Below the pieces are notes generated by a model. It did not search any database. It was not told where the DNA came from and was given only the letters and a program-made list of their open reading frames with translations. A stretch of 64,000 nucleotides of DNA from Pseudooceanicola onchidii (GTDB taxonomy: Bacteria; Pseudomonadota; Alphaproteobacteria; Rhodobacterales; Rhodobacteraceae), in NCBI RefSeq assembly GCF_004959925.1, contig NZ_SPUW01000001.1:930001-994000 (forward strand). The letters are read 5' to 3'. The position numbers and the translations under genes were made by a program. This document shows positions 1,432-29,004 of this stretch, in pieces (the stretch's first letter is position 1; the number at the start of each line of letters is the position of its first letter).

Positions 1432-2019
1432 ATGCATGGCCTGATGATGAGATCGATCCAGTGTTTCGCAAGGGACACCTACGGGCAGGGCCTCTGGGCG
1501 GCTGTGGCCCGTCGTGCGGCACTGGACGTTCCGGACTTCGAAGCCATGCTGACCTACGACCAGCGCGTGGCCGAAGAGGTCATCGCCGCGTTGACGGTCG
1601 AACTGGGCCGTCCCCGCGCCAGCGTGCTGGAAGACATCGGGACCTACCTCGTGTCGGACCCCAATGTCGAAAGGCTGCGGCGGCTGCTGCGGTTCGCGGG
1701 CATCAGCTTCGAGGATTTTCTTCAATCGCTCGAAGATCTGCCGGGCCGTGCGCGGCTTGCGGTATCTGACCTCATCCTGCCGCGCCTGACCCTGCAGGCC
1801 TTGCCGGGCGGCCGTTACATCCTGCGCATCGACGGGGATCCGCCGGGCTTTGCCCATGTCATGGTGGGTATCCTGCGGGCCATGGCCGACGACTATGGCG
1901 CGCTGGTGATGCTGGATCATCACGGCCAGCGCGACGGGGTGGACGAAATCGCGATCACCCTGGTCGAAGCCGCCTTTGCCGAAGGTCGACAGTTCGTGCT
2001 GGGGGACCACGCCGGATGA
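1432..2019 (+). CDS. H-NOX (haem NO-binding) domain protein lacking the haem ligand set
   Basis: A 195-residue protein with the length and fold signature of stand-alone bacterial H-NOX sensors: the MHGLM start, the helical N-terminal half, and the segment around GFAHVMVGILRAMADDYG (residues 139-156). H-NOX proteins bind haem through a proximal His near residue 102 and a Y-x-S-x-R motif near 131-135, and sense NO or O2. Here the His position reads Pro (LEDLPGRARL, P104) and the YxSxR stretch reads I-D-G-D-P (133-137), so all four haem-contact residues are gone. I infer that it is haem-free or binds something else. Its stop overlaps the start of the diguanylate cyclase gene (ATGA), the classic H-NOX partner arrangement, so a regulatory partnership is likely kept. 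Confidence 0.85.
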   Translation: MHGLMMRSIQCFARDTYGQGLWAAVARRAALDVPDFEAMLTYDQRVAEEVIAALTVELGRPRASVLEDIGTYLVSDPNVERLRRLLRFAGISFEDFLQSLEDLPGRARLAVSDLILPRLTLQALPGGRYILRIDGDPPGFAHVMVGILRAMADDYGALVMLDHHGQRDGVDEIAITLVEAAFAEGRQFVLGDHAG

Positions 2020-3107
2020 GCGGGGACATGACCCGCCTACTGCCGGACGACGGGGCGGGTGGGGGCGCCCTGTGCTCGGCGCTCGATCAGCTGTGCCCGA
2101 TGCATTGCATCCTGGATCCGCAGGGCATGATCCTGCATGCGGGGCCCACGCTGCAAAAGCTGCGCCCTGGCCTGTCGTTGCCCGGTCAGACCCTCTGGCA
2201 GGTGTTTGATATCGTCCAGCCCTGCGCGGCGACCTCGATGGCGGCGCTGACCTCGGCCGCCGGGCGCCGCACGCGCCTGCGCTTGCGGTTTCGCGACCTG
2301 CCGCGCACTGACCTGCAGGGGCTGCTGGTGCCGCAGGCGGACGGCGGCGCCATCGTGAACCTCGCCTTCGGGATCTCGATCCTGGATGCGGTGCGGGATT
2401 ATGCTCTGACGAACACCGATTTCGCCGCCACCGATCCGACGGTCGAAATGCTGTTCCTGGTCGAAGCCAAGTCCGCCGCGATGGAGGCGTCGCGCAAACT
2501 GACCCGCCAGCTGCACGTCGCCAAGATCGCCGCCGAGGAACAGGCCTTCACCGATACGCTCACCGGGCTGAAGAACCGCAGGGCGCTGGACCATGTGCTG
2601 GGGCGCATGATCGGCGCGGGCCGGGAATTTGCCCTGATGCACCTCGACCTCGATTTCTTCAAGCAGGTCAACGACACCCTTGGGCATGCGGCGGGCGATC
2701 ACGTGCTGGAACACGTCGCCGCCATCATGGTCGAGGAAACGCGCAACGACGACGTGGTGGCCCGCGTCGGCGGGGATGAATTCGTGCTGGTCTTTCACAG
2801 CCTCTGCGACCGCGCGCGGCTTTCCGAAATCGCGCACCGCCTGATCGCGCGGCTCGAGGAACCGATCCGGTGGAAGGACGAGACCTGCCGCATCTCGGCC
2901 TCTGTCGGCACGGCGATATCAACCGACTACGCGGACCCCGAGGCCGAGCGCATGATCGCGGACGCAGACACCGCGCTGTATGCCGCCAAGCGCGGCGGAC
3001 GGGCGCAGCATCGGTTCTTCGAACCCGTCGCGCCGCCCGCCGGGTCACGCGTGACCGCGCCGGAGGCGAAAATGCCGCCAGAGCAGGCGGAACGGCGAAA
3101 AAGATGA
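2016..3107 (+). CDS. HNOBA-GGDEF diguanylate cyclase (H-NOX partner)
   Basis: A 363-residue cytoplasmic protein that should make cyclic di-GMP from GTP. Residues ~15-130 form the PAS-like haem-NO-binding-associated (HNOBA) domain that docks H-NOX proteins, ~145-180 a helical linker, and ~175-335 a GGDEF domain. The active-site GGDEF is intact at 252-256, and an RxxD inhibitory site (R243-D246) sits five residues before it, so product feedback is expected. No EAL domain and no transmembrane segment are seen. The start codon overlaps the H-NOX stop by four bases, so the pair is translationally coupled. The last ~30 residues are low-complexity and charged. Because the H-NOX lost its haem ligands, the input signal to this cyclase is uncertain. 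Confidence 0.9.
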   Translation: MSGDMTRLLPDDGAGGGALCSALDQLCPMHCILDPQGMILHAGPTLQKLRPGLSLPGQTLWQVFDIVQPCAATSMAALTSAAGRRTRLRLRFRDLPRTDLQGLLVPQADGGAIVNLAFGISILDAVRDYALTNTDFAATDPTVEMLFLVEAKSAAMEASRKLTRQLHVAKIAAEEQAFTDTLTGLKNRRALDHVLGRMIGAGREFALMHLDLDFFKQVNDTLGHAAGDHVLEHVAAIMVEETRNDDVVARVGGDEFVLVFHSLCDRARLSEIAHRLIARLEEPIRWKDETCRISASVGTAISTDYADPEAERMIADADTALYAAKRGGRAQHRFFEPVAPPAGSRVTAPEAKMPPEQAERRKR

Positions 3108-26878: not shown

Positions 26879-28042
26879 ATGTTCAGACGCATGGTCTATG
26901 CGGCCTTGATCGCGCTGTGTGCCGCCCAGGCGCGGGCCGATCTGACCGTGGGCATCGCCCATCTCCAGGTCGCGCAGCCCATGCCGCCGACCCTGTCGAA
27001 CCTCGATCCCGTGCCGGATGACCTTGGCCTCGCCGGTGCGCTGACGGGGCTGTCGGACAACACCACGACCGGTCGGTTCCTGGGCCAGGCCTACACGCTG
27101 GAAAGCACGGTGGTCGGCGAAGGGGACGACCCGCTGCCTGCCGCCCGCGCGCTGCTGGCCAACCACCGGTTCCTGGTCCTTGATGCAGCCCCCGAGGTGC
27201 AACTGGCCATCGCCGACATGTCCGAGGCGCAGGGGGCGCTGCTGTTCAATGCCTCCTCGGGTGCGGCGGCGCTACGGGATGGGAACTGCCGGGCGAACCT
27301 GCTGCATACGCTGCCCTCGGACGCCATGCGCACCGATGCGCTGGCGCAGGTGCTGGTGCAGAAACGCTGGACCGACCTTGCGCTGATATCGGGCACGCAC
27401 CCGCAGGACGAGGCCTATGCCGAGGCGCTGCGCCGGTCGCTGACCAAGTTCGGCCTGCGTCTGAAGGCGGAAAAGACCTGGGCTTTCGACGCCGACATGC
27501 GCCGCAACGCCGCGCAGGAGGTGCCGCTGTTCACCCAGGATCTGGGCGATTACGACGCGCTGATCCTGGCGGACGAATTGCACGATTTTGGCCGCTACGT
27601 GCTGTACAACACCTGGCAGGCCCGGCCCGTCGTCGGATCCGAAGGGCTGACGGCCGTGACCTGGAGCCCGGTGATCGAACAATGGGGCGCCGCGCAGCTG
27701 CAATCCCGCTTCCACGAAGCCCACGCCCGCGACATGCAATCCGAAGACTACGCCGCCTGGGCCGCCCTCCGCACGATCGGAGAGGCGGTGACCCGCACCG
27801 GGTCGGACGACCCACAGGTGCTGCGCGACTACATCCTGTCCGACGCCTTCGAGCTGGCAGGCTTCAAGGGGCGCCCGCTGACCTACCGCCGCTGGAATGG
27901 CCAGCTGCGCCAGCCGATCGCCGTGGCGCACCCCCGCGCCTTGGTCGCCCAGGCGCCGCTGGATGGCTTCCTGCACCGGGTCAACGAACTCGATACCCTC
28001 GGGCTGGACGCTCCCGAAAGCACCTGCGAGGCCTTCAAATGA
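26879..28042 (+). CDS. ABC transporter periplasmic binding protein of PQQ alcohol dehydrogenase systems (Ped/LutA-type)
   Basis: A 387-residue exported protein with a signal peptide (ends ARADL, ~21). The body looks like the type I (branched-chain amino-acid/LIVBP) fold but is divergent. This family is recognised as the binding-protein-like component of an ABC system encoded beside PQQ alcohol dehydrogenases; the related lut genes of Methylobacterium serve lanthanide handling. A GGCAGGAGGAG ribosome-binding site precedes the ATG. It is the first gene of a tightly coupled operon (ATGA overlap with the next gene) that runs through the permease. Confidence 0.85.
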   Translation: MFRRMVYAALIALCAAQARADLTVGIAHLQVAQPMPPTLSNLDPVPDDLGLAGALTGLSDNTTTGRFLGQAYTLESTVVGEGDDPLPAARALLANHRFLVLDAAPEVQLAIADMSEAQGALLFNASSGAAALRDGNCRANLLHTLPSDAMRTDALAQVLVQKRWTDLALISGTHPQDEAYAEALRRSLTKFGLRLKAEKTWAFDADMRRNAAQEVPLFTQDLGDYDALILADELHDFGRYVLYNTWQARPVVGSEGLTAVTWSPVIEQWGAAQLQSRFHEAHARDMQSEDYAAWAALRTIGEAVTRTGSDDPQVLRDYILSDAFELAGFKGRPLTYRRWNGQLRQPIAVAHPRALVAQAPLDGFLHRVNELDTLGLDAPESTCEAFK

Positions 28043-29004
28043 AAACCACCACTGCCCTTGCCCTGATCCTGATGATGGGCGCCCCCGCGCTGGCCGACGA
28101 GATCTGGGTGACCAACGAAAAGGACGACACCGTCAGCGTGATCGATACCGACACGCTTGAAGTCATCCAGACCTACGCCACCGGCGAACGCCCGCGCGGC
28201 ATCACCTTTTCGCACGATTATTCGCGGGTCTACATCTGCGCCTCCGACAGCGACGCCGTGCAGGTGATTGACCCCGCCACCGGAGAGATCCTGCATGACC
28301 TGCCGTCGGGCGAAGACCCTGAACAGTTCGTGCTGCACCCCGACGACGTGCACCTCTACATCGCCAACGAAGACGACGCGATCACCACGGTCGTGAACAC
28401 GCAGACCCGCAAGGTCGTAGCCCAGATCGACGTCGGCGTCGAACCCGAGGGCATGGCCGTGTCGCCCGATGGCAAGATCGCCATCACGACTTCGGAAACC
28501 ACCAACATGGCGCATTGGATCGACACCGGAACGCAGGAGCTTTTCGCCAACACTCTGGTCGACAGCCGCCCGCGCCATGCGGAATTCACCCGCGACGGGT
28601 CCGAGATGTGGGTGAGCTCGGAAATCGGCGGCACCCTGACCGTCTTCGACACCGCCACCCAGACCGAAAAGGCCAAGATCACGTTCGAGATCAAGGGCAT
28701 CCACCCCGACCGCGTGCAGCCCGTGGGCTTTGAGTTCACCGAGGGCGACAGCCATGTCTTTGTCGCGCTAGGGCCGTCCAACCATGTCGCCGTGGTCAAC
28801 GCCAGGACCTACGAGGTCGAGGATTACATCCTTGTCGGCCGCCGGGTCTGGCACATGGCCTTCAACAGCGACCGCACGCGGCTTTTCACCACCAACGGCG
28901 TGTCCGGCGATGTCACCGTGATCGACGTGGCCGGTCGCAAGGCACTGAAATCCATCAAGGTCGGCCGCTTCCCCTGGGGCGCGGCCTTCCGCCCGACTGA
29001 CTGA
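28039..29004 (+). CDS. PQQ-dependent catabolism-associated beta-propeller protein (YVTN-type)
   Basis: A 321-residue periplasmic protein with a signal peptide (ends ALADE, ~20) and seven or so YVTN-type repeats such as WVTNEKDDTVSVIDT, YICASDSDAVQVID, YIANEDDAITTVVN and FTTNGVSGDVTVIDV. It matches the beta-propeller family always found with quinoprotein ABC genes (LutD-type in methylotrophs). Its role is unknown; scaffold or metal/cofactor transfer in the periplasm is plausible. The start overlaps the stop of the preceding gene (ATGA), and the stop overlaps a potential upstream start of the next. Confidence 0.88.
   Translation: MKTTTALALILMMGAPALADEIWVTNEKDDTVSVIDTDTLEVIQTYATGERPRGITFSHDYSRVYICASDSDAVQVIDPATGEILHDLPSGEDPEQFVLHPDDVHLYIANEDDAITTVVNTQTRKVVAQIDVGVEPEGMAVSPDGKIAITTSETTNMAHWIDTGTQELFANTLVDSRPRHAEFTRDGSEMWVSSEIGGTLTVFDTATQTEKAKITFEIKGIHPDRVQPVGFEFTEGDSHVFVALGPSNHVAVVNARTYEVEDYILVGRRVWHMAFNSDRTRLFTTNGVSGDVTVIDVAGRKALKSIKVGRFPWGAAFRPTD

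Follow-up and report, generated by a model that had tools for sequence, protein, structure and literature searches.

A Group 5 H-NOX protein without the proximal haem ligand, linked to an intact diguanylate cyclase in Pseudooceanicola onchidii

The window, meaning here the whole 64,000-nucleotide stretch of DNA from the marine bacterium Pseudooceanicola onchidii that was analysed, carries an H-NOX-fold gene that has lost its haem-ligand residues and is linked to a diguanylate cyclase gene. The fold is kept, the H-NOX gene is under purifying selection, and the catalytic and inhibitory motifs of the cyclase are intact. We consider it reasonably probable that the pair is a Group 5 H-NOX/diguanylate cyclase module in which the H-NOX protein, as an apo pseudo-H-NOX, binds to the cyclase and holds it in check. 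The loss of the ligand in this type of H-NOX has already been published and is standard for the gene across Rhodobacteraceae; what is new here is the placing of D. shibae among a His-bearing minority, the estimates of selection and the obligate linkage to the cyclase. The features are as follows.

1432–2019, + strand: H-NOX-fold gene (hnoX-like) of the Group 5 type, 195 aa (Pfam HNOB, structural model, family orthologues)
1741–1743, + strand: P104 codon at the position of the proximal haem ligand (His) (ungapped alignment to Nostoc H-NOX, 163-member alignment)
1828–1842, + strand: I133-D-G135-D-P137 in place of YxSxR (alignment to Nostoc H-NOX, 163 relatives)
2016–2019, + strand: ATGA, 4 bases shared by the stop codon of the H-NOX gene and the start codon of the cyclase gene (sequence; 131 of 174 pairs alike)
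2016–3107, + strand: diguanylate cyclase gene, 363 aa (Pfam GGDEF, E=9.1e-40; found downstream at every one of 169 loci)
2076–2369, + strand: HNOBA-like (PAS-like) domain, residues 21–118 (HNOBA 22.5 bits; alpha/beta domain modelled with high confidence)
2436–2546, + strand: long signalling helix or coiled-coil, residues 141–177 (helix 141–177 in the model; conserved in the partner alignment)
2742–2753, + strand: RxxD inhibitory site R243-N-D-D246 (both R243 and D246 unchanged across 37 aligned partners)
2769–2783, + strand: GGDEF active-site motif, residues 252–256 (GGDEF in 162 of 162 aligned partners)

Results

Fold and haem contacts of the window protein

The open reading frame at 1432–2019 scores 60 bits with Pfam HNOB (PF07700), whose curated cut-off is 25.5 (E=3.5e-16), and the closest solved structures found by phmmer were those of Nostoc H-NOX (E about 2e-12). 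An AlphaFold2 model with 48 family members in the input had a mean pLDDT of 89.2 and the helix and strand order of an H-NOX protein. Its top Foldseek match in the PDB was Nostoc H-NOX 2o09, with TM values of 0.82 (query) and 0.87 (target), followed by sGC beta and other H-NOX chains. The HNOB match and the resemblance of the model to Nostoc H-NOX thus demonstrate that the fold is kept despite the lost haem contacts, and a first, sequence-only reading of this DNA was right in taking the fold-defining segments as conserved.

The phmmer alignment pairs 'DNLHARVGL' of Nostoc H-NOX with 'EDLPGRARL' of the window protein, which puts P104 opposite the proximal His, and pairs 'HYQSTR' with 'RIDGDP', which puts I133, G135 and P137 opposite the Tyr, Ser and Arg of YxSxR. 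Both replacements had been called in the sequence-only reading, with correct coordinates, and both are borne out. A misalignment masking a His is ruled out as the alignment has no gap across helix F and the His-bearing relatives place their His in the same column. Haem independence would be the natural reading of such a sequence. The window protein has two candidates for an alternative ligand, H142 and H2, the latter being 97% conserved within the clade. Its single Cys is C11; position 133, where its relatives partly conserve a Cys, is an Ile. The protein begins at the canonical first residue (MHGL), as does the whole clade, and it has no pocket-filling N-terminal extension of the sGC alpha type.

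Distribution and conservation across Rhodobacteraceae

HNOB genes occur in 21 of the 22 Pseudooceanicola genomes and in 299 of 397 genomes of the family. The family scores form two sets, a canonical one at about 100–146 bits and the window type, mostly at 55–97 bits. When 289 genomes of the class were searched with the family alignment, all members at 300 bits or more came from the family to which the window belongs. Four further matches, one of them within that family, were far weaker (49–106 bits). Pooling the named genomes and the survey gave 163 distinct window-type proteins. At position 104 these carry Pro (127), His (11), Ser (9), Ala (5), Gln (3), Arg (3), Asn (2) and Thr, Tyr or Glu (1 each), so that Pro accounts for 78%, His for 6.7%, and about 93% lack the proximal His. 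YxSxR was found in 0 of the 163 relatives; the 4 canonical sequences aligned with them all have it. The earlier reading had raised the question of whether the loss is fixed in a clade: it nearly is, with 152 of 163 members lacking the His, but not fully, since the other 11 keep it.

That so many residues are seen at the ligand position bears on the idea that the vacated pocket holds a different small molecule which controls the cyclase. The retained fold and the constraint next to the pocket (66% of relatives have C133, and P117 hardly varies) would fit such a role. The variety at position 104 argues against one shared contact, however, C133 is replaced by Ile in the window protein, and no ligand is known or predicted; we find this explanation unlikely.

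The dN/dS of the H-NOX gene was 0.21–0.25 between the window and its three nearest relatives and about 0.07–0.45 over all computable pairs, with similar values for the cyclase. The gene is thus under purifying selection in step with its partner. Since all four hallmark haem contacts are gone one might suspect a decaying pseudogene or a local mutation, a view to which we give practically no credence. It is refuted by the clade-wide nature of the substitution, the purifying selection and the constant linkage to the cyclase, which together make the ligand loss neither error nor decay. The same substitution in independent genomes together with dN/dS likewise rules out chance or a sequencing error.

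Several residues are near-invariant in the clade and absent from canonical sequences, namely H2, Y17, E67, D68, L73, R83, F88 and S99 and further along A110, R149, D154, Y155, L158, R186, F188 and L190. Their conservation suggests an interaction surface.

Two Pseudooceanicola genomes (G001 and G002, loci L002 and L003) encode a canonical His-bearing H-NOX beside the Group 5 type, meaning that both types can coexist in one cell. The canonical-type H-NOX of another genome (G108, L144:4625-5278) keeps 'YHSDR' and carries a Gln at the proximal His ('ELQAEVHKLYP'), apparently a separate loss of the ligand.

The diguanylate cyclase and its linkage

The cyclase was also modelled with a pLDDT of 89.2, as an alpha/beta PAS-like domain (about residues 15–118), a helix at 141–177 and then the GGDEF domain. 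Its HNOBA (PF07701) match of 22.5 bits lies below the cut-off of 23.4; of 37 relatives, 33 match HNOBA at E<0.01. In a first screen a same-strand cyclase adjoined the H-NOX gene in 169 of 169 loci, and 4-base overlaps (ATGA, GTGA or TTGA) joined 131 of 174 H-NOX/cyclase pairs. Of the overlapping HNOBA-GGDEF partner described in the sequence-only reading, the 4-base ATGA overlap and the GGDEF domain (E=9e-40) are confirmed, the HNOBA match stays sub-threshold, and the GGDEF motif (residues 252–256) and inhibitory site (residues 243–246) within 2016–3107 are intact as had been claimed. Judged from its sequence, the cyclase that is linked to the H-NOX gene is probably functional.

The order of H-NOXA/PAS, coiled-coil and output domain is common to sGC and the window cyclase, here with GGDEF as the output. 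This order would also suit a non-sensing subunit that serves constitutively for structure or stability, as in the sGC alpha H-NOX, which has no haem. The N-terminal extension that fills the pocket of sGC alpha is absent here, though, and the fact that hundreds of genomes strongly conserve the H-NOX protein as a separate gene is, like the P. denitrificans phenotype (below), compatible with a constitutive subunit but does not require one, so that we regard this as a doubtful account of the pair.

Directly upstream of the window H-NOX gene, on the same strand, lies an MTTB-family methyltransferase gene (4–1347), and 96 of 146 relatives, D. shibae among them, have an MTTB gene in this place and orientation. 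Another GGDEF gene is found outside the window, some 3 kb ahead of it (G000:C1:926626-927129); the genome as a whole has five GGDEF and three EAL matches.

The His-bearing minority

The D. shibae H-NOX (L134, genome G056) is one of the 11 His104 members; the first 4 kb of the second contig of that genome match NC_009955.1 (D. shibae DFL 12) with 100% identity. It reads 'DDLHDRARLAV' and has no YxSxR. On a tree of 142 sequences, built with the His column left out, a minimum of nine changes in the His state is required, many of the branches being weak, and a loss-only history would need 18 losses. A two-state model favoured this loss-only history for the clade alone but not when the outgroup was included. 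Repeated change of the His state is the best reading of this tree, and the models disagree on gain versus loss.

A Trp at the Ser position of YxSxR (135) occurs in 6 of 11 His104 members versus 2 of 152 others (Fisher p=5e-7, unadjusted), and may possibly mark an alternative haem-pocket motif. The co-variation of W135 with His104 was unsupported after correction for the tree, with only one independent pair on well-supported branches. The His-bearing members with Trp135 are L134, L136, L137, L139, L158 and L181.

These comparisons bear on whether haem/NO sensing has been kept through another ligand (H2 or H142) or none, with the NO-bound form inhibiting the cyclase. In favour of this are the conservation of H2, the D. 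shibae protein, which the literature lists as a haem/NO sensor although it has no YxSxR, and the assignment of P. denitrificans HnoX to an NO pathway by its authors (PMC5588039). Given the D. shibae case, a missing YxSxR is not in itself proof against haem. Yet D. shibae still has its proximal His, and His2 accompanies His104 as well in 10 of 11 cases, the exception being L158 with Tyr2, and is therefore not a compensating change. Nor is NnrS enriched among genomes with His104 (6 of 10, against 15 of 30 of those lacking it); NirK above the cut-off was found in 2 of 10 and 4 of 30, respectively. We therefore hold the retention of haem/NO sensing in the window protein to be improbable.

NO metabolism in the window's genome

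In the window's genome no NirK scored above the cut-off, and neither NnrS nor a credible NirS was present, so that no endogenous source of NO is evident in it, a point in favour of the reading preferred below. A weak Cytochrom_D1 match near 28.2 kb was considered as NirS and rejected, the open reading frame there being by its sequence a YVTN-type beta-propeller. That protein follows a substrate-binding-protein-like open reading frame and precedes an ABC-transporter ATPase open reading frame in the region 26879–29004; judged by sequence, this cluster resembles those associated with PQQ dehydrogenases.

Discussion

The Group 5 H-NOX cluster was defined by Lee-Lopez & Yukl in 2022 (PMC8738867) and seeded by the H-NOX of P. 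denitrificans. These authors described a proximal His in less than 10% of members, mostly Pro in its place and no conserved Cys, named GGDEF and MTTB among the neighbour families in their network figure, and posed the question of what Group 5 proteins sense. Our counts (His 11/163, Pro 127/163) match their proportions independently, and the constant GGDEF and frequent MTTB neighbours seen here agree with theirs. The window gene has a P. denitrificans relative, Pro104, an adjoining GGDEF gene, MTTB nearby and no conserved Cys; no feature separates it from Group 5, of which it is a previously undescribed but ordinary member.

The missing His was noted earlier still in P. denitrificans HnoX and in R. 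sphaeroides (Kumar & Spiro 2017, PMC5588039). The P. denitrificans protein, encoded on the 1.73-Mb replicon of strain HAMBI_2443, reads 'RELPGRVKL' with a Pro at the ligand position, and falls into the same clade of our tree as the window protein (39.7% identity over 97%, E=2e-28, tblastn). As in the window, HnoX/DgcA (Pden_3719/3720) combines the change of His to Pro with a lost YxSxR and an overlap with a GGDEF gene. The two H-NOX proteins are however only about 40% identical, the P. denitrificans protein sits on a long branch, and P. denitrificans denitrifies and makes NO, whereas in the window's genome neither NirK above the cut-off nor a credible NirS or NnrS was found. The hnoX mutant was partly biofilm-deficient and BapA-negative, whereas loss of both cyclases (dgcAB) led to excess biofilm; the inhibition of DgcA by HnoX was inferred by the authors from these mutant phenotypes (PMC5588039). 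In a 2025 study of P. denitrificans c-di-GMP could not be measured, so that this inhibition still rests on inference.

The D. shibae H-NOX (Dshi_2815) is reported to be a haem/NO sensor that inhibits Dgc1 when NO-bound, work by Bedrunka et al. in 2018 as cited in PMC7232146 and PMC8846402. It belongs to the same clade as the window protein, has the same partner, has lost YxSxR and lies near mttB, but differs in having kept the proximal His ('DDLHDR') and in the NO-bound inhibition of Dgc1 that is reported for it. As the statement that NO-bound H-NOX inhibits the cyclase rests on this His-bearing protein, it should not be assumed for Pro-bearing ones. More distant are the canonical haem-binding proteins (Nostoc, Shewanella, Legionella and sGC beta), which share the fold, and in Legionella and Shewanella woodyi also diguanylate cyclase partners, but have the proximal His and YxSxR. 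The pseudo-H-NOX of sGC alpha resembles the window protein in lacking a haem ligand and in being linked to a PAS/coiled-coil/cyclase protein; it is however a domain of the same chain, eukaryotic and not close in sequence.

Our preferred reading of the pair, an apo pseudo-H-NOX restraining its cyclase, would run as follows. The H-NOX protein keeps its fold and probably its docking surface but has lost the residues for holding haem by way of a proximal His, making it most likely haem-free. It would dock on the HNOBA/PAS-coiled-coil region of the co-translated cyclase, and once bound may restrain the synthesis of c-di-GMP. From an evolutionary point of view it is tempting to speculate, very tentatively, that Group 5 exchanged gas sensing for a haem-free input, be it another pocket ligand or a partner protein, and that on the sampled tree the proximal His switched state nine times or more. 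Related species might then control the same cyclase through two versions of a single regulator, one NO-sensing and the other NO-blind.

In reviews the D. shibae H-NOX figures as an NO sensor, and that of P. denitrificans as probably similar. D. shibae has the haem ligand, whereas P. denitrificans, the window and about 93% of the clade do not, and the D. shibae mechanism cannot simply be transferred to the window or P. denitrificans proteins. Our findings caution against annotating hundreds of such genes as NO sensors. The His- and Pro-bearing relatives within this clade offer a natural comparison for how an H-NOX protein works without haem.
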